Below the pieces are notes generated by a model. It worked only from the letters and a program-made list of their open reading frames with translations, was not told the DNA's origin and did not search any database. The translations under genes and the position numbers were made by a program. DNA of 42,624 bases from Actinomycetota bacterium (GTDB lineage: Bacteria > Actinomycetota > Acidimicrobiia > Spongiisociales > UBA5794), in the NCBI GenBank assembly GCA_030123765.1, contig JASJXX010000011.1, forward strand, positions 1 to 42,624, read 5' to 3'. Positions 21,964 through 31,931 of the stretch are shown here, one piece after another. Position 1 is the first letter of the stretch. Every line of letters starts with the position of its first letter.

Positions 21964-22395
21964 TTACCGCGGTGGGTACGGTTCGAAACCTTCGATGCGC
22001 TGAATCTCCCTCACGAAGGCGATGATGCGATCCATGTCCTCGAATGAGATGTCAGGGATCGGTGGCATGTCACCGAACTTCCAATGGTGGGCGGGGACGC
22101 CGTTGAGCGCCGCAAGCGTGAACGCTCCATCTGCGTGATGATCCGGGTTGTACACAACCGACAGATGAGACGGCCCGAGATCTGTTCCTCGAAGATCGGA
22201 ACCATGGCACACCGCGCAGCTTGCCTGGTACAGAACTTCTCCCTCAGCGACAAGGGAAGCGTCCTGTACGGGTAAATCGAATCGGCTCTCGCCGGTCATC
22301 GGGTCTCGGGGCGACGAGTCCCCGCCCGTGGACACGACAGCGATCACGGCAATGACGACTCCCGCGACGATCAGCGGTGCTGCAATCCTCTTCAT
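21964..22395 (-). CDS. Membrane-anchored c-type cytochrome
   Basis: A 143-residue protein with one N-terminal membrane anchor (5-22) and a cytochrome c domain outside the membrane. Haem is bound by C60-x2-C63-H64 (ASCAVCHGSDL), with Met110 in GDMPPIPD as the likely axial ligand. ATG 22395 is chosen because it starts at the hydrophobic anchor; the longer start would run through the palindrome at 22418-22443. The domain is a paralogue of the cytochrome at 35778 (both have GEVLY, C-x2-CH, then a DL-x-G pattern). It could feed electrons to the oxidase at 27.9-31.3 kb or serve in copper handling beside the divergent ATPase. Confidence 0.88.
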   Translation of the reverse strand: MKRIAAPLIVAGVVIAVIAVVSTGGDSSPRDPMTGESRFDLPVQDASLVAEGEVLYQASCAVCHGSDLRGTDLGPSHLSVVYNPDHHADGAFTLAALNGVPAHHWKFGDMPPIPDISFEDMDRIIAFVREIQRIEGFEPYPPR

Positions 22396-22443: not shown

Positions 22444-22510
22444 ACTCACGGTGTACACGGTACTCCTCTCCACAAATAACCCCTACCCCTCGGGGGGAGG
22501 GGAACCTATC

Positions 22511-24754
22511 ATGCGGGGTGCCCTCTTGCATCCTCAACGACGGAAGCGTGCGATGGTGACCGAATCGGACTCACGAGCGAGGAGAGCGACCGACAGCTGC
22601 ACCTGCTGCCGGTTGTGTCGCCTCGCGTCCGACGAGACGCCTGGGGCCCGTAGCGACGCGGCGCATCGCGTTGCGACAGATACGCATGCCGGCATGGCAC
22701 ACGACGAACACGTCTCACGGCACCGTGACCATGCCGAAGAGGGGGGTGACGAGCATGCGGGTCACGGTCCTGATCACGTCGGCCATGAGGAGATGTTCCA
22801 GAGACGGTTCTTGGCCTCGTCGTTGTTGAGCCTCCCGGTACTTTTTTGGAGCGAGACGATCCAGGCCTGGTTTCGTTACACGGCAACGGTCTTCCCTGGA
22901 TCCGGTCTCATCGTCCCCGTGATCGCGACCGTGATATTCGTATACGGTGGCTTCCCTTTCCTGAGCATGGCCGTCCACGAAGTGAGGAAGCGGCAGCCGG
23001 CGATGATGACTCTCATCGCTCTAGCGATCACCGTCGCGTACGGATTCTCGATGTTCACTCTCGTTTCGCAGATCGGGGACGACTTCTTCTGGGAGCTTGT
23101 CACGCTGATCGACATCATGCTGCTCGGTCACTGGCTGGAGATGCGCAGCGTGCGTCAAGCTTCGGGGGCGCTCGGTGCGCTCGCACAGTTGATGCCCGAC
23201 ACCGCAGAGGTCGAGGGACCGGAGGGAGGGGTGACGACTGTCACGCTATCTGAGCTCTCTGAGGGCCAGGTCGTCCTCATCCGTCCCGGCGCCAGCGTTC
23301 CAGCCGATGGGGTGATCATCAGCGGCGAGTCGGATTTCGACGAGGCGCTCATCACGGGGGAGTCGCGCGCCGTGCAGAAGGAGACGGGTGCTCCTGTCAT
23401 CGCGGGGACCGTGAACTCCGGATCCGGATCTGTTCGCGTCCGCGTCACCGCGACCGGTCGCGACACGGCTCTCTCCGCGATCATGCGACTGGTAGCCGAC
23501 GCTGAGTCCAGCAAGTCGCCGACGCAGCTCCTCGCCGACAGAGCGGCTTCCTTCCTGTTTTACGCGGCGGTCGGTGCAGCAGCCCTGACAGCTCTGGTCT
23601 GGATCGTGATCTACGGTGGTGCGGATGGGCGGATGGTCACCCGTGTAGTAACGGTGCTCGTGATTGCATGCCCGCACGCGCTCGGTCTCGCCATTCCGCT
23701 CGTGGTTGCAAACACGACGTCCATAGCGGCCCAGAACGGCATCCTGATCCGCAATCGAGAGGCGATTGACACGGCGAAAGACTTGACGGTGGTCATCTTC
23801 GACAAGACAGGGACGCTCACCACCGGCCAGATGGGAGTGGTCGAGGTAGCAACCGTCGAGGGAGTCACGTTGCAGCGAGCACTCGGGCTGGCCGCAGCAG
23901 TTGAGGCTGATTCCGAGCATCCGCTGGCTCGGGCGATCCGAGAGTCCGCCGAATCGCATGGCAGTGCTCCACCCGCATCATCGAATTTCGAAGCGTTGAA
24001 AGGGCGCGGTGTCCGGGCGGTCATCAACGGTGCTGATGTGTTTGTTGGAGGTCCGAGGCTCCTTGAGAGCATGGATTTGGAGGCGCCGCCGTCCCTCGCC
24101 GATTTCGCACGTTTGGCTGGTGGTCGGGGAGAGTCGGTCGTCTATCTGATCGACAGTGGCACGCCGGTGGCGGCGATCTCCATATCCGACATCATTCGGC
24201 CAGAGAGCGCGCCAGCGATCAACACCCTGAGAGCGCGCGGTGTGCGTGTCGGCATGATCACGGGAGACAGCGACGACGTCGCACAGGCTGTCGCGAGCGC
24301 TCTGGATCTCGATTTCGTCTTCTCCCAGGTGCTCCCCGCAGAGAAGGACGCGCATGTGTCCCGGCTCCAGGCAGAGGGCGATCGTGTCGGCATGGTCGGT
24401 GATGGAGTGAACGATGCGCCTGCGTTGGTGAGAGCGGAGATTGGTATCGCCATCGGCAGCGGAACAGATGTCGCGGTCAAGTCGGCCGACCTCGTGCTCG
24501 TAAAGAGCGACCCTCGAGACATCGTCAAGATTCTCCGGTTGTCGAGCGCGAGCTACCGCAAGCAACTCCAGAACATCTGGTGGGGAGCCGGGTACAACAT
24601 CGTCATGATCCCGCTCGCAGCAGGTGTGCTCGTGCCGTGGGGCTTCGATATGCCCCCTGCGGCCGGTGCTGCCCTGATGTCGCTCAGCACGATCGTCGTC
24701 GCGGTGAACGCTCAGTTGTTACGGCGCGTCAATCTTGAGTCGGATGTGGTGTGA
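22511..24754 (+). CDS. Heavy-metal P-type ATPase, CopB-like (CPH type)
   Basis: A 747-residue P1B-type ATPase. The N-terminus holds a Cys cluster (C30, C32, C33, C36) and ten His between residues 52 and 92, a CopB-like metal-binding tail. The membrane metal site is CPH (387-389, IACPHALGL), typical of P1B-3 pumps for copper. Other motifs are TGES (282-285), the phosphorylated D431 in DKTGTLT, and the hinge GDGVNDAP. It would export copper from the cytosol or supply it outside for oxidase assembly. ATG 22511 is chosen because a strong GGGGAGG site lies about ten bases upstream; starts at 22451 and 22553 are alternatives. It is divergent from a cytochrome c gene. Confidence 0.92.
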   Translation: MRGALLHPQRRKRAMVTESDSRARRATDSCTCCRLCRLASDETPGARSDAAHRVATDTHAGMAHDEHVSRHRDHAEEGGDEHAGHGPDHVGHEEMFQRRFLASSLLSLPVLFWSETIQAWFRYTATVFPGSGLIVPVIATVIFVYGGFPFLSMAVHEVRKRQPAMMTLIALAITVAYGFSMFTLVSQIGDDFFWELVTLIDIMLLGHWLEMRSVRQASGALGALAQLMPDTAEVEGPEGGVTTVTLSELSEGQVVLIRPGASVPADGVIISGESDFDEALITGESRAVQKETGAPVIAGTVNSGSGSVRVRVTATGRDTALSAIMRLVADAESSKSPTQLLADRAASFLFYAAVGAAALTALVWIVIYGGADGRMVTRVVTVLVIACPHALGLAIPLVVANTTSIAAQNGILIRNREAIDTAKDLTVVIFDKTGTLTTGQMGVVEVATVEGVTLQRALGLAAAVEADSEHPLARAIRESAESHGSAPPASSNFEALKGRGVRAVINGADVFVGGPRLLESMDLEAPPSLADFARLAGGRGESVVYLIDSGTPVAAISISDIIRPESAPAINTLRARGVRVGMITGDSDDVAQAVASALDLDFVFSQVLPAEKDAHVSRLQAEGDRVGMVGDGVNDAPALVRAEIGIAIGSGTDVAVKSADLVLVKSDPRDIVKILRLSSASYRKQLQNIWWGAGYNIVMIPLAAGVLVPWGFDMPPAAGAALMSLSTIVVAVNAQLLRRVNLESDVV

Positions 24755-26552: not shown

Positions 26553-27422
26553 TCAGCCGGCGAAGGACCAGAGGCTTGCGACGGGTATTGCTGCGAGTAC
26601 CGCGAGAGTTCCGTACAGCAGCATGCGAATCTGTGGCTTCGTTACCGCAGGACCGTCCGAGAGAGACTCGAGCCGGATAGCCGCTGCCTCAGCTTTGGAG
26701 AAGGCAGCGATGCCGGTACCGCAGTAGGTGTGGCTGAGCGTCATTAGAGCGCTCCTCGTGGACCGCCTGTCGAGGGATGTCGGACCAGCCGCAGCGTCTG
26801 CCCAGCATTCGAGGGACAACTCGAGGGAGTCGAGGCTCTCCCGTACTGGACGGAGATGCCCGAAGATCGGAGCCAACGCAGCGACGACGAGAAGATACCT
26901 TGAGTGGCGGTAGCGGATGTGTGCGGCCTCATGCTGGATCACTGTGCGAAGTTCGTCCTCCGTCAGTACCTCTACGAGGCCCTCAGACAGGACGATCTGT
27001 GGAGGTCTTCCGGGGAGGGAGAAGGCGAGTTCGGCTCTTGTGGGGAGGAGCACGATGTCAACGCCGTCGACGAGGTGGTGCTCCCCGAACCAGGGCTCCG
27101 CCCGGAGCACTCTCCGTCTCGCGACGAGCCTTGCGATGCCGATCGCGACGCTTACGGGTAGGGCTACGGCAGTGATGAGAGAGACGTAGCCGGCGAATAT
27201 CCCACCCGGAAAGAAGTGCCTCTGCTCGCCACCGTTGATGAAGAACAGAAGGAGTGGGAGGGCGCAGACGATGAGCGCAACCTCAAATAGCACGACCGCG
27301 GCGACCAGGGATGTCGCGTTGATCCTCGCCCACTCAGATGGAGCGAGGTGGGCGCGCAGTCGCCGTGTGAGAGAGGGGAGTAGGAGGAGCCCAATGACCG
27401 CGAGGAGGAGTGCTTCGCTCAT
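26553..27422 (-). CDS. M56-family (BlaR1/MecR1-like) membrane metallopeptidase
   Basis: A 289-residue membrane protease with four or so helices and the zinc motif HEAAH (H164, E165, H168) followed by E205 in LSLECWAD. M56 proteases partner BlaI/MecI-type repressors: on a signal they trigger cleavage of the repressor. This one lacks the extracytoplasmic penicillin-sensor domain of BlaR1, so the signal is not a beta-lactam bound in that way. The ATG overlaps the stop of the blaI-like gene by four bases, giving a two-gene operon divergent from the cytochrome oxidase operon. Confidence 0.88.
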   Translation of the reverse strand: MSEALLLAVIGLLLLPSLTRRLRAHLAPSEWARINATSLVAAVVLFEVALIVCALPLLLFFINGGEQRHFFPGGIFAGYVSLITAVALPVSVAIGIARLVARRRVLRAEPWFGEHHLVDGVDIVLLPTRAELAFSLPGRPPQIVLSEGLVEVLTEDELRTVIQHEAAHIRYRHSRYLLVVAALAPIFGHLRPVRESLDSLELSLECWADAAAGPTSLDRRSTRSALMTLSHTYCGTGIAAFSKAEAAAIRLESLSDGPAVTKPQIRMLLYGTLAVLAAIPVASLWSFAG

Positions 27423-27769
27423 TCGTGCTCCAGGAATCGACGCAGCTCCCTGCGATCGGAGGCAGAGAGATTGTCGATGAATCTCGCCAGCGTGAGGTTG
27501 CGCTCACGTGTTGCAGCAAGCAGCTCCTCCATTCTTCGAGCGGCGCTGTCTGCCCTGCCCTCTCTCGGAAGGTACGTGTAGGTGCGACCCCGTCGGGTGC
27601 GGGTGAGCAGGCCTTTCTTCCAGAGTCGCGATACGGCTGTGAGGACCGTCGTGTAGGCAATGGCCCTGGCGCTCTTGAGTTCTGCGTGGACCTGGGACGG
27701 GGTGAGCGGCTGGCTCGCGTTCCACAGGATCTCCATCACTGCAGACTCGAGATGCGGTTCCCTCGACAT
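27419..27769 (-). CDS. BlaI/MecI/CopY-family transcriptional repressor
   Basis: A 116-residue winged-helix protein (MSREPHLESAVMEILW, then PLTPSQVHAEL, AYTTVLTAVSRLWKKGLL, RTYTYLP), the typical BlaI layout with a helical C-terminal dimerisation part. ATG 27769 is chosen because GAGGAG lies eight bases upstream. BlaI repressors bind palindromes related to TACA-N2-TGTA. Two palindromes lie in the region between this gene and coxB, at 27803-27813 and 27886-27903. The M56 protease encoded next is its likely inactivator. It has no metal-binding Cys tail as in CopY, so direct copper sensing is not indicated. Confidence 0.9.
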   Translation of the reverse strand: MSREPHLESAVMEILWNASQPLTPSQVHAELKSARAIAYTTVLTAVSRLWKKGLLTRTRRGRTYTYLPREGRADSAARRMEELLAATRERNLTLARFIDNLSASDRRELRRFLEHE

Positions 27770-27802
27770 GCTCTCTGCTCCTCGGTTCTCGACAAGAGAT
27801 AC

Positions 27803-27813
27803 TACATCGTGTA
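27803..27813. promoter_or_regulatory. Candidate BlaI operator near blaI
   Basis: TACA-TCG-TGTA is a palindrome 34-44 bases upstream of the blaI-type start. It overlaps a minus-strand TAGTAT -10-like box (27804-27799), so binding would fit autorepression. It matches the TACA/TGTA half-sites known for BlaI/CopY repressors, but with a three-base centre instead of two. Confidence 0.4.
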
Positions 27814-27885
27814 CAAGCACACGTCGGGGAACACGCGAGATAACCGTGAGAAAGACTGAATTGCGGACTATGCAATTGGGGTTTA

Positions 27886-27903
27886 ACTACTACAATTAGT
27901 AGT
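27886..27903. promoter_or_regulatory. Candidate BlaI operator at the cox promoter
   Basis: ACTACTACAATTAGTAGT is a perfect inverted repeat with seven-base arms and a CAAT centre. It touches the -35 box of the cox promoter. It contains TACTACA on one side and nearly the mirrored TGTAGTA on the other, close to BlaI-type operators. Repressor binding here would block the oxidase operon. Confidence 0.55.
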
Positions 27904-27931
27904 AGACAAGCTCGATTGAAGCGGCTATGTT
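27903..27931 (+). promoter_or_regulatory. Promoter of the cytochrome oxidase operon
   Basis: TAGACA (27903-27908, one base from TTGACA) is followed by a 17-base spacer and TATGTT (27926-27931). Transcription would start near 27938, leaving a leader of about three bases before the coxB ATG. Confidence 0.55.
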
Positions 27932-27940
27932 CGCCGCAGA

Positions 27941-28708
27941 ATGGGTGCAGAACGATCAGACAATAGAGTTGACCTCATCATCGTCGCCGTGCTGTGGGTA
28001 GCGCTCACGGGTGCTGGATTGTGGTGGGCAACCGTGACGAATCTCCACCCGATCGGAGCGTCGAGTAACGCGGTGATATCGGATGAAGCATTCGATCTTC
28101 TCCTGTATCTCTCCATGCCGGTCACGACCTTCGTAGTGGTCGTTCTCGGTTACTCCGTCCTACGATTTCGCGTATCCCTCGACGAGACGGAGGATGCGGC
28201 GCCGGTTCGGAGCAACCGGCTCTTCATCGCGATGTGGGTACTCATCACGGTGGGTCTCTCCGTGTACGTGATCTTCAACCCCGGGTTCACGGGTCTCGAT
28301 GCTCTCGCGGCTGACAAGAACGCGGAGATGACGATCGAAGTCACGGCCAGCCAGTGGAGGTGGGACTATCGGTATGTCGAGGAGAACATCGAGTTCCTGG
28401 ACGCAGACGGACTCGTACTCCCCGTAGACACGCGGATCCTGTTCAAGATCACCTCGCAGGACGTCATCCACTCGTTCTGGGTACCGGCCTTCCGCGTCAA
28501 GAAGGATGCCGTGCCCGGTCTCATCACAGAGGTCTACATGACGACGACGAAGCTCGGCGACTTTGCTCAGGACGACGGCTTCCGCAACCAGTGTGCAGAA
28601 CTCTGTGGAACAGGGCACACGCGTATGCGTACGACCGTGACCGTGCTCACCCGGGTCGACTTCATCGCGTGGGTCGATGCACAGCGGAACGCGGAGGTGT
28701 CGGGATGA
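27941..28708 (+). CDS. coxB: Cytochrome c oxidase subunit II
   Basis: A 255-residue subunit II. Hydrophobic segments lie near 10-32, 54-75 and 94-112; the CuA domain follows outside the membrane. All CuA ligands are present: H177 (VIHSFWVP), C218, E220, C222, H226 and M229 (CAELCGTGHTRM). The aromatic electron-entry patch is SQWRWDYRY (137-145). There is no C-terminal cytochrome c domain, so it is not a caa3-type fused subunit, and no lipobox. It is the first gene of the oxidase operon, with its promoter and a palindromic operator candidate immediately upstream. Confidence 0.95.
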   Translation: MGAERSDNRVDLIIVAVLWVALTGAGLWWATVTNLHPIGASSNAVISDEAFDLLLYLSMPVTTFVVVVLGYSVLRFRVSLDETEDAAPVRSNRLFIAMWVLITVGLSVYVIFNPGFTGLDALAADKNAEMTIEVTASQWRWDYRYVEENIEFLDADGLVLPVDTRILFKITSQDVIHSFWVPAFRVKKDAVPGLITEVYMTTTKLGDFAQDDGFRNQCAELCGTGHTRMRTTVTVLTRVDFIAWVDAQRNAEVSG

Positions 28709-28737
28709 CGACTTCGGTACGAGCGGTGAACGCGTGA
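28705..28737 (+). CDS. Ten-codon ORF bridging coxB and coxA
   Basis: ATG at 28705 overlaps the coxB stop (ATGA). The ORF encodes MTTSVRAVNA, and its TGA overlaps the coxA GTG (GTGA, 28734-28737). A strong GGAGG (28693-28697) lies seven bases upstream of this ATG, whereas the coxA GTG has no ribosome site of its own. It probably serves as a translational bridge that sets subunit I output; the peptide itself need not be functional. The alternative, that it is chance, is weakened by both overlaps and the perfectly placed GGAGG. Confidence 0.5.
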   Translation: MTTSVRAVNA

Positions 28738-30539
28738 GCATTCTCAAAGGGATAGTTGGCGGCATCCTTGGCTACCTGCTGGGCGCAGCGTTGGTTACTT
28801 CGATCAGAGCCGCGACCGGCGCCGAGCCCTGGGACTTTGAAGTGGCGACGATGGGGGCGTACCTGCCGACCGTGGTCGGTTGGCTCCTGGGTGTGGGTGT
28901 CTGGGAGTACTGGGCGCGCCCGTGGTTTGGCAGAGAGGCCAAGCCGTACACCACGGTCGGGTGGAGGCGGTACTTCAATTTCGACACAGATCACAAAGTG
29001 ATCGGCATCCAGTACCTCGTGAGCTTCTTGTTCCTGTTCTTTCTCGCAGGCCTCTTCGCCATGGTGATGCGGTGGGAGCTGATGAACCCTGGCAGGGACA
29101 TCCTCACCCCATCGTCGTACAACGGTTTCATGAGTCTCCATGGAACAATGATGGTGTTCGTCGCAGTCGCTGCGATCGTCGGCGCGTTCGGGAACTACAT
29201 CGTCCCAATCATGATCGGCGCGGACGACATGGCTTTCCCGAAGCTCAACGCGTTGAGCTACTGGCTCGTTCCGGTCGTCGTGGCGTTCCTGACAGCCTCG
29301 TTCTTGGTCGGCGGGTACGACACCGGATGGACCGGGTACGCACCGCTCTCCGTCACGACGCGAACAGGTGCCCTCTTCTTCAACCTGGCATTCCTCACGC
29401 TCGGTCTCTCCTCGATCGTCGGTGCCATCAACTTCCTCACCACGGTCCACAAGATGCGAGCTCCCGGCATGACGTGGTCACGTCTCCCCATCTTCGTCTG
29501 GTCGATCTACGTCACCTCGTGGCTGTCTCTCATCTTTACCCAGTTCATCGCCCTCGCCATGCTGATGGTCGTCTTCGCCCGAACCCTCGGGATGGCCTTC
29601 TTCGAAGCAGCAGCAGGTGGCGACCCGCTGCTGTACCAGAACGTGTTCTGGTTCTACTCGCATCCTGCTGTCTACATCATGATCCTTCCGGCGTTCGGCG
29701 TGACGCTCGAGATCCTCTCGCACTTCTCGCGCAAGCCGCTCTTCGCTTACAAGTGGGCCGTGGGAGGCATGATCGGGATCGCAGCCATGAGCGCGTTCGT
29801 GTGGGCGCACCACATGTTCACGAGTGGTATGCCTGACGTCCTCCTGAAGCCGTTCCTTGCGTCGACGGAGCTCATATCGATCCCAACGGGTCTCATCATG
29901 TTGTCGGCGCTCGGAACGATCTGGCAGGGGAGGCTCCGGCTTCACGTGCCGATGTTGTTCGCCCTTGGAGTGGTCTTCAACTTTCTTTTCGGCGGAATCA
30001 CCGGGGTGTTCCTCGCAGACGCTCCCCTCGACATCCAGCTCCACGACACGTACTTCGTGGTGGCCCACTTCCACTACGTGATTCTCGGGGGTGGCATCTT
30101 TGGCCTGTTCGCCGCCGTCTATTACTGGTTCCCGAAGATGACCGGCCGGATGATGAACGAGACGCTCGGAAAGGTCCACTTCTGGTGGATGATCATCGGC
30201 TTCAACTTCACCTTCATGCCGATGTTCTGGATCGGGATGAACGGGATGAACCGACGCATCTCGGACTACGTCCCGAACCTCGGTGGAACCAACAGGATGA
30301 TCTCGCTCGCGGGCTTCTTCCTCGGGATGAGTTTCGTGATCTTCCTCTGGAACTACATCTACTCCTGGTGGCGTGGCGCCGACGCCCCCTCCAACCCGTG
30401 GGGTGCAACGACGCTCGAGTGGATGACATCGTCGCCGCCACCGCTCGAGAATTTCGACGTCATACCTGAGGTGGTCGGGGGCCCGTACACCTACGGCGAC
30501 AAGTCGGCGAAGCACGCGATCTTGGAGCCACGATTGTGA
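28734..30539 (+). CDS. coxA: Cytochrome c oxidase subunit I, A2-like, with two extra N-terminal helices
   Basis: A 601-residue haem-copper oxidase catalytic subunit. Two extra membrane helices (about 5-25 and 40-58) precede the usual core. Haem a ligands are H136 and H447; CuB ligands are H310, H359 and H360; haem a3 is bound by H445; the cross-linked Tyr is Y314. The helix VI motif is Y308-S309-H310-P-A312-V, the YSHPAV signature of A2 oxidases that replaces the Glu of HPEVY. The D-channel Asp (GADDMAFPKLN) is present, but Ile388 in IPTGLIML replaces the K-channel Lys. GTG 28734 is chosen by its overlap with the bridge ORF; ATG 28677 lies in coxB without a ribosome site. Confidence 0.93.
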   Translation: MSILKGIVGGILGYLLGAALVTSIRAATGAEPWDFEVATMGAYLPTVVGWLLGVGVWEYWARPWFGREAKPYTTVGWRRYFNFDTDHKVIGIQYLVSFLFLFFLAGLFAMVMRWELMNPGRDILTPSSYNGFMSLHGTMMVFVAVAAIVGAFGNYIVPIMIGADDMAFPKLNALSYWLVPVVVAFLTASFLVGGYDTGWTGYAPLSVTTRTGALFFNLAFLTLGLSSIVGAINFLTTVHKMRAPGMTWSRLPIFVWSIYVTSWLSLIFTQFIALAMLMVVFARTLGMAFFEAAAGGDPLLYQNVFWFYSHPAVYIMILPAFGVTLEILSHFSRKPLFAYKWAVGGMIGIAAMSAFVWAHHMFTSGMPDVLLKPFLASTELISIPTGLIMLSALGTIWQGRLRLHVPMLFALGVVFNFLFGGITGVFLADAPLDIQLHDTYFVVAHFHYVILGGGIFGLFAAVYYWFPKMTGRMMNETLGKVHFWWMIIGFNFTFMPMFWIGMNGMNRRISDYVPNLGGTNRMISLAGFFLGMSFVIFLWNYIYSWWRGADAPSNPWGATTLEWMTSSPPPLENFDVIPEVVGGPYTYGDKSAKHAILEPRL

Positions 30540-30763
30540 GCGATATAGCTGCAACGGGTGAGATGCAGGGTGCGCGCCGGATCGGTATCGGTGTGAGGGT
30601 CGTCCTCGTGCTCGGGGCACTCACCGTAATCGAGTACGCCATTGCGATCGCAGAGCCACCCGGCCAGTTGCCGCTGATCTTCGCTATCGCCCTGGCGAAG
30701 GCTGTGCCGATCCTCATCTACTTCATGCACGTCAACCAGATATGGGGAGGGGAGCACTCGTGA
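30536..30763 (+). CDS. Cytochrome c oxidase small subunit (subunit IV type)
   Basis: A 75-residue protein with two membrane helices (about 20-38 and 48-66) and the ending AKAVPILIYFMHV, typical of prokaryotic subunit IV (COX4_pro-like). It stabilises the oxidase complex. The GTG overlaps the coxA stop by four bases (GTGA), and the 3' end overlaps subunit III in the same way. Assignment rests on size, helices and operon position. Confidence 0.8.
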   Translation: MSDIAATGEMQGARRIGIGVRVVLVLGALTVIEYAIAIAEPPGQLPLIFAIALAKAVPILIYFMHVNQIWGGEHS

Positions 30764-31338
30764 CCGCTGTCGGCCATGCAGCCCACGGAGTGCACGAGGC
30801 GCCGGCGAAGCGCCTCGGGATCAACCGCCTCGGGTTGTGGTTCTTCATCCTCAGCGAGTCGATATTGTTCGTCGGCCTCCTCATGGTGCGCTTCTCCCTG
30901 CTTGGCACCTACATCCACGAGGAGCTGTCTCAGCTCATCGGTCTGATGATCACGGTGATTCTGCTGGCCTCGTCTTTCACCGCGTATCAAGCAGAGCGTT
31001 CGATGGCGAGAGGCGACCTTGGGGCGACCAAGCGGAACTTGCTGATCACACTCGGCCTCGGCACGGTATTCATCGCAGGCGTCGCGTTCGAGTGGCACGA
31101 AGCCCTGGAAGCGTTCCCTCCGAGCACAGTGTTTGGATCGGTGTTCTTCACGATGACCGGGGTTCACGTCTTTCACGTGCTCACCGGGCTCGTGATGCTC
31201 GCCATTGTGCACAGGAGAGTGCGAAGACACGAAACCACATCTACTGATTCGTGGCCGGTTGAAGCATCGGTGAAGTACTGGCACTTCGTCGACGTCGCGT
31301 GGGTGTTCTTTTACCCGGCACTGTATCTGATCAGCTAA
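30760..31338 (+). CDS. coxC: Cytochrome c oxidase subunit III
   Basis: A 192-residue subunit III with five predicted helices, the short bacterial form lacking the first two helices of the seven-helix type. Conserved features are GLWFFILSESILFVGLL, YQAERSMARGD, ALEAFPPSTVFGSVFFTMTG, GVHVFHVLTGL and the end YWHFVDVAWVFFYPALYL. GTG 30760 is chosen because it overlaps the preceding stop (GTGA) and a very strong GGGGAGGGGAG lies upstream; ATG 30742 is possible. It is the last core subunit gene. Confidence 0.93.
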   Translation: MTAVGHAAHGVHEAPAKRLGINRLGLWFFILSESILFVGLLMVRFSLLGTYIHEELSQLIGLMITVILLASSFTAYQAERSMARGDLGATKRNLLITLGLGTVFIAGVAFEWHEALEAFPPSTVFGSVFFTMTGVHVFHVLTGLVMLAIVHRRVRRHETTSTDSWPVEASVKYWHFVDVAWVFFYPALYLIS

Positions 31339-31376: not shown

Positions 31377-31931
31377 ATGTTGAAGAGAGAGACAGAGTGG
31401 CGGATCGGACTCATCGCGGTTGCAGTGGCCCTCGTCGCTACGGCGTGTGGCGGCGGAGACTCCGCTGTAACGCCGGACGAGGACGGCGTCATCATCATCG
31501 AGATGAGTGAATTCGCGTTCTCACCTGGAGACATCAAGGTGAAAGTCGGCGACACCGTCACGATCAAATTGAACAACGTCGGTGATAAGGAGCACGAATG
31601 GATGATCGGCAGAGAAGTCGAGTCTGAGGAAGGATTCCCGAACGGCTTCCATGTGAACTTTTTCGACGACATGATGGGTCTCGAGGTCATGCCGATGAAC
31701 GCCGCGATGGGGATGCCAGACATGGAGATGGATGGCGACGACAGCACCATGGAAGGCATGGATGACGACATGGGCCACGGATTCATGGTCATGCGTATGC
31801 CTGGCGAAGCAGCGACTATCACCTTCACCGTCACCGAGGACCAGATCGGTGAGTGGGAGATGGCTTGCTTTGAGGAGGACGGCGCCCACTACGACGACGG
31901 TATGAGAGGTACCTTCATCGTCGAAGGCTAA
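31377..31931 (+). CDS. Met-rich cupredoxin lipoprotein
   Basis: A 184-residue lipoprotein (lipobox VATAC, Cys24) with a cupredoxin domain. A type 1 copper site is readable: H73 in KEHEWMIG, then C164-x6-H171-x4-M176 near the C-terminus. Between them (99-141) is an Asp- and Met-rich insert with 14 Met residues, typical of proteins that handle Cu(I). It lies 38 bases after subunit III, with an AAGGGAAGG ribosome site, and is the last gene before the operon terminator. It could deliver copper to CuA/CuB or carry electrons to the oxidase. Both roles are inference. Confidence 0.85.
   Translation: MLKRETEWRIGLIAVAVALVATACGGGDSAVTPDEDGVIIIEMSEFAFSPGDIKVKVGDTVTIKLNNVGDKEHEWMIGREVESEEGFPNGFHVNFFDDMMGLEVMPMNAAMGMPDMEMDGDDSTMEGMDDDMGHGFMVMRMPGEAATITFTVTEDQIGEWEMACFEEDGAHYDDGMRGTFIVEG

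Follow-up and report, generated by a model that had tools for sequence, protein, structure and literature searches.

The locus and the question it raises

What does a BlaI-family repressor control when its gene, paired with that of a membrane protease, stands divergent from a cytochrome c oxidase operon? The locus examined here lies in a stretch of DNA (the window) that forms one whole contig, of 42,624 bases, of a 2.2-Mb draft genome assigned to the Acidimicrobiia. A blaI-like repressor gene (27419..27769, minus strand, 116 aa) and the gene of a BlaR1-like membrane zinc metalloprotease (26553..27422, minus strand, 289 aa) share an ATGA overlap at 27419-27422, and 171 bp lie between blaI and coxB, which starts at 27941 on the plus strand. 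These coordinates confirm the divergent arrangement described in the initial annotation, which had proposed that the pair controls the oxidase.

The first gene of the oxidase operon encodes an accessory-type subunit II (coxB, 27941..28708, plus strand; TIGR02866, 159 bits, above cut-off; type assigned by tree), and is followed 3' by ctaD for subunit I (28734..30539, plus strand; PF00115, 476 bits; placed by tree), a small ORF, cox3 for subunit III (30760..31338, plus strand; PF00510, 89.5 bits) and a cupredoxin gene. The cox3 start at 30760 is inferred from a GTGA overlap, the longest ORF beginning at 30742. The cupredoxin (31377..31931, plus strand; PF13473, 31.4 bits, above cut-off) is a CopI-like lipoprotein that scores 44 bits, below cut-off, against the CopI family NF051440.

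On the other side of the locus are genes for a ferric-reductase-like membrane protein, a DUF3105 protein, a CopB-like copper P1B-type ATPase (22451..24754, plus strand; TIGR01511, 556 bits; the true start may be 22553) and, in the same cluster, a mono-haem cytochrome c (21964..22395, minus strand; PF00034, 37.6 bits; start taken at MKRIAAP). The ATPase translation has a CPH motif and a His-rich N-terminus, and the homologue of the cytochrome c gene in a genome of the same genus (G003) lies directly 5' of coxB. Between the genes for cytochrome c and the copper ATPase there is also a GC-rich inverted repeat, CCCCTACCCCTCGGGGGGAGGGG, at 22480-22503, which is present in G003 too (L082, about 1210-1235) and resembles an operator of the CsoR type; two genes of the CsoR family are found in the genome, both on other contigs.

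The repressor and its partner protease

The repressor carries a BlaI/MecI winged-helix domain (PF03965, 87.9 bits against a cut-off of 22.6) and is the only match to that family in the genome. Its nearest solved structure is that of Mycobacterium tuberculosis BlaI (2g9w, E 1.8e-24), and its best NCBIfam match is CopY_TcrY (41 bits; cut-off 122). CopY of Firmicutes, a member of the same repressor superfamily with the operator TACANNTGTA, binds copper via C-terminal CxC motifs (PMC7253601). Unlike CopY, the protein encoded in the window has no cysteine in its 116 residues and so no C-terminal Cys-x-Cys, and direct copper binding of the CopY type was rejected on this ground.

The protease had been labelled M56 in the initial annotation. 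Against Pfam it scores higher with M48 (39 bits) than with M56 (16.4 bits, under the cut-off of 31), and we therefore call it BlaR1-like by fold and, by Pfam, not a member of M56. In its predicted structure (mean pLDDT 87.6) the best aligned fold is residues 7-290 of Staphylococcus aureus BlaR1, which are the membrane and zinc protease part of that protein (Z 11.0, rmsd 4.4, 208 residues); the next match, the M48 protease ZMPSTE24, reaches Z 10.1 but with an rmsd of 9.8. Four long membrane-type helices are found together with HEAAH at 164-168 and E205, and H164, E165, H168 and E205 are invariant in 50 protease sequences, as in a membrane gluzincin. A C-terminal penicillin-binding sensor domain is absent, as the initial annotation had held: the protein ends about 120 residues past HEAAH, its last helix in the model spanning 263-288. 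The protease partner of M. tuberculosis BlaI, Rv1845c, is likewise not known to have a penicillin-binding sensor. A protease ORF of 286-368 residues with HExxH follows 62 of the 80 named blaI genes.

Predicted operators in the divergent promoter region

Two predicted BlaI sites lie in the region between the genes. The first, O1 (CTACTACAATTAGTAGTAG, 27887..27905, perfect 7-nt arms), overlaps the start of the -35 box of the coxB promoter (27903..27931, plus strand), which consists of TAGACA at 27903, a 17-nt spacer and a -10 TATGTT ending at 27931, and is the sole promoter-like pair that a promoter scan found in the region. As the -10 box ends 9 nt before the coxB ATG, the mRNA may be leaderless. 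The 7-4-7 palindrome reported earlier at TAGACA (ACTACTACAATTAGTAGT, 27886-27903) is real, and O1 is its fuller form. The second site, O2 (27801..27814, GTACACGATGTAGT on the minus strand), contains the TACA/TGTA palindrome noticed before blaI, TACATCGTGTA at 27803-27813. This predicted operator, of the type expected at the promoter of a BlaI/MecI family gene, is 34 bp 5' of the blaI ATG and the sole TACANNNTGTA in the window. O2 is the weaker site, with GTAC in place of CTAC; similar sites stand before blaI in relatives.

By themselves, these elements are weak evidence. The window holds 45 perfect palindromes with 7-nt arms and loops of 0-8, each nested case being counted separately, and shuffling the intergenic region yielded a perfect 7-nt-arm palindrome in 180 of 3000 trials, so that the palindrome of O1 says little alone; TACANNNTGTA arose in 8 of 3000. 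The weight that we give to both sites comes from comparison.

A survey of 99 blaI upstream regions, from the order and from named actinobacteria and, since relatives are included, not equivalent to 99 independent events, identified CTAC-Nn-GTAG as a typical element upstream of actinobacterial blaI genes at n of 5 (12 regions), 8 (32) or 11 (18). The spacing n=3 occurred in 4 of the 99, other spacings were nearly empty, and dinucleotide shuffles gave on average about 0.25 occurrences per spacing; this three-base periodicity, with little at the spacings in between, serves as an internal control. Many of the 99 regions have no exact site with n of 5, 8 or 11. O1 combines all three spacings and is, as a prediction, a BlaI-type operator. 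It is also the one exact copy of CTAC-N5-GTAGT in the 2.2-Mb genome. Two further n=8 matches (on contigs C28 and C38) fall within predicted ORFs and were set aside as regulon members, and a scan of the genome allowing one mismatch returned dozens of mostly GC-rich background matches and no clear further member.

Conservation at coxB promoters of relatives

One check on O1, proposed with the initial annotation, is whether a palindrome of this kind stands upstream of the cox operons of relatives. The genomes used from the window's own order are fragmented draft assemblies. Besides the window (G000), the genomes that bear on the question are G003, G039 of the same family and, from a different family of the class, G302; these three other Acidimicrobiia all have the site at their orthologous coxB promoter. 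Aligned coxB promoters of G000, G039 and G003 have in common CTACARTTWGTAGTAGACA ... TATGTW and a 9-nt gap to the ATG. In G003, coxB is 3' of the cytochrome c gene on one contig and blaI is on another, past the cupredoxin gene that belongs to this oxidase operon; sites are found there upstream of both coxB and blaI and also in the gap from the copper ATPase gene to the cytochrome c gene, whereas the window has no BlaI-type site in its own ATPase/cytochrome c intergenic region. G302 has a coxB of 48% identity (ctaD, 72%) that is divergent from a protease-blaI pair whose two genes come in reversed order, and the gap between coxB and this pair holds the sole CTAC-N5/N8-GTAG in 12 kb.

Among 41 coxB promoters for which at least part of the upstream region could be seen, the site was present in those of the window, G003 and G302 only and absent from the other 38; G039, in which coxB is cut by the contig end, is a fourth genome with the site, seen at that end. 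We regard this as strong comparative evidence for O1 as a predicted operator. With a BlaI-type operator over the -35 box that is kept in relatives, even where blaI is not adjacent, the earlier proposal gains support, and the blaI-protease pair very probably controls this cox operon.

Other cox operons show elements of a different kind. The CTAC/GTAG site is absent from the cox operons of G125 and G126, which have blaI at the downstream end; these operons have GACAAATTGTC near the coxB start, possibly a variant operator. In the same operons and in that of G074 (L048:7646-7680; L349), GACANNNTGTC occurs 17-18 bp before coxB and may be the BlaI operator with a T-to-G change. Another strong site of G039, CTACTACACCGAGTAGT, is on contig C167 (L238:2267-2283), near ORFs for secreted proteins and with no clear target. 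The blaI-protease pair of G040 and G069 (L017, L044) is next to genes for cytochrome c maturation, with ORFs similar to CcmF, CcmH and CcdA, and operator-like sites precede some of these genes.

The probable target enzyme and the company kept by blaI

A second coxB-ctaD-cox3 set is present in the genome, on contig C80. Trees of CtaD and CoxB place the C80 copy among the usual oxidases found in the genus and family; the copy in the window branches separately, joined in the CoxB tree by its counterpart from G003. The enzyme under predicted BlaI control is therefore an accessory oxidase; the cox operon named as the target in the initial annotation stands, but the housekeeping oxidase is the one on C80. 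Relatives of blaI are patchily distributed: counting a few marginal cases, they occur in 8 of 50 genomes of the family and in 21 of 138 of the order.

Where blaI does occur, copper or cytochrome genes tend to be close by. They lie within 6 kb of blaI at 20 of 21 loci of the order (the remaining locus ends inside coxB), a count that is inflated because the protein queries were partly chosen from neighbours of such loci. The class-level comparison is cleaner: such genes are near blaI at 15 of 20 further loci of the class and are found in 0 of 20 comparably sized control regions.

Independent pairs on plasmids of other actinobacteria likewise flank genes for terminal oxidases. On a Rhodococcus erythropolis plasmid (L334) a blaI-M56 pair stands between copper-resistance genes and an extra ctaD, and 16 kb contain four copies of ACTAY-N5-RTAGT, one each upstream of copD, the blaI operon, ctaD and copC. 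Kocuria and Dietzia plasmids have blaI-protease genes divergent from cydAB with palindromes between them: a 55-bp perfect palindrome with 27-nt arms in Kocuria rosea (L335:7872-7926) and CTACATAGCGTAG in the Dietzia gap. The plasmid pairs of Gordonia, Tsukamurella and a Streptomyces have unrelated surroundings, so the link of the pair to copper or oxidase genes is common and not universal.

A proposed switch and its signal

From the genes, sites, conservation and family-wide link to blaI found by sequence comparison, together with the predicted protease fold, we infer the binding, repression, proteolysis and signal of the following model, which we consider likely as a whole. BlaI would bind CTAC...GTAG palindromes at O1, over the cox -35 box, and at O2, before blaI, and would so repress coxB-ctaD-small ORF-cox3-cupredoxin and its own operon. 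On a signal, the protease would cut or otherwise inactivate BlaI and both operons would be derepressed. Since the protease has just a short loop on the outside and lacks a sensor domain, it probably reads that signal inside the membrane or by itself. Our best guess for the signal is copper, as in the cyanobacterial PetR-PetP system: when copper can be supplied or has to be handled, the copper-rich oxidase, the cupredoxin and, in G003, cytochrome c and the copper ATPase would be made.

Copper is favoured over the unspecified envelope or respiratory signal suggested earlier because of the gene neighbourhoods and the PetR-PetP precedent. PetR of Synechocystis PCC 6803 is a BlaI-type regulator that is degraded by a copper-activated BlaR1-type protease (Garcia-Canas et al. 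2021); the system controls plastocyanin and cytochrome c6, and PetR is also an activator (PMC7896320, PMC13421787, PMC12292863). The two systems share a BlaI-family regulator, a BlaR1-family protease, a gene pair near its targets and copper-using electron-transport proteins, and the actinobacterial pair is, like PetR-PetP, linked to copper-protein carriers and oxidases by a common, here predicted, operator. They differ in that the target in the window is a haem-copper oxidase operon and that the copper response, established in the cyanobacterium, is here a proposal. Judged from gene content and sites, the pair would work like PetR-PetP. The simple rationale that a copper enzyme is made only with copper leaves it unexplained why BlaI should be limited to the accessory oxidase, because the housekeeping oxidase needs copper too.

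The same switch on the cox promoter could instead answer to respiratory or redox failure, such as blocked electron flow or the haem or thiol state. We think this rather unlikely, and it is our second choice of signal after copper. M. tuberculosis BlaI represses the ATP synthase operon (PMC12565901, PMC5874750), and several actinobacterial pairs adjoin genes for cytochrome c maturation, CcdA/TlpA or the copper-free cydAB; these bd-oxidase cases keep a respiratory signal in play, or would fit a switch to a copper-free oxidase. Yet copper ATPase, CopC/D and cupredoxin genes recur next to the pair, and PetP, the sole sensorless relative with a stated trigger in the literature consulted, responds to copper (PMC13421787).

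That the pair regulates only itself, the palindrome serving blaI and coxB just sharing the divergent promoter region, is very unlikely. BlaI repressors as a rule regulate their own genes, and here both promoters lie within the same 171 bp. However, the coxB site is not a by-product of such sharing, since it is kept in G003, where blaI is elsewhere, with its position towards the cox -35 and -10 boxes unchanged; O1 is moreover closer to coxB than to blaI, which has its own O2.

A response to beta-lactams or cell-wall stress, by a classical BlaI/BlaR regulon that happens to take in the oxidase, is more improbable still. M. tuberculosis BlaI, the closest solved structure, controls blaC (PMC8265638), its regulon comprising blaC, sigC and atp genes (Sala et al. 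2009; PMC5874750, PMC12565901, PMC8265638). Because that repressor works with the sensorless Rv1845c, the missing sensor domain alone does not exclude a beta-lactam link. Against it, the protease lacks a penicillin-binding sensor domain and no beta-lactamase or penicillin-binding protein gene is found among the cluster genes examined. BlaI-BlaR1 and MecI-MecR1 of S. aureus, whose proteases have the fold with HExxH...E (PMC9834060), resemble the pair in protease fold and in TACANNNTGTA-type operators, but here there is neither a beta-lactam sensor domain nor a resistance gene. We give hardly any credence to binding of O1 by some other regulator, for while BlaI binding to O1 is a prediction, the motif is enriched upstream of blaI across Actinomycetota and BlaI is the sole family member in the genome.

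Implications for BlaI-protease pairs in Actinomycetota

A literature search that combined BlaI with cytochrome oxidase, M56/copper or cydAB turned up no account of this kind of control. The nearest case is again M. tuberculosis BlaI-Rv1845c, with the closest BlaI structure, a sensorless protease and a repressed oxidative-phosphorylation operon, that of ATP synthase; unlike the operon proposed here, no terminal oxidase is reported in that regulon in the literature consulted. More broadly, we hold with about even confidence that actinobacteria widely use sensorless BlaI-protease pairs as a switch for their accessory terminal oxidases, both haem-copper and bd, and for the copper supply of these enzymes: a respiratory counterpart of PetR-PetP that evolved from, or in parallel to, the beta-lactam system.

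In most genomes BlaI and its protease partner are read as antibiotic-resistance genes, and many annotations of this sort in Actinomycetota would be misleading if a terminal oxidase is what the pair controls. The Rhodococcus, Kocuria and Dietzia plasmid cases offer culturable hosts for direct testing. If the proposal is true, a large family of orphan sensorless proteases would gain a testable role in the choice of respiratory oxidase, probably by copper status, and the results on BlaI and ATP synthase in M. tuberculosis and on PetR-PetP in cyanobacteria would be joined in one theme.
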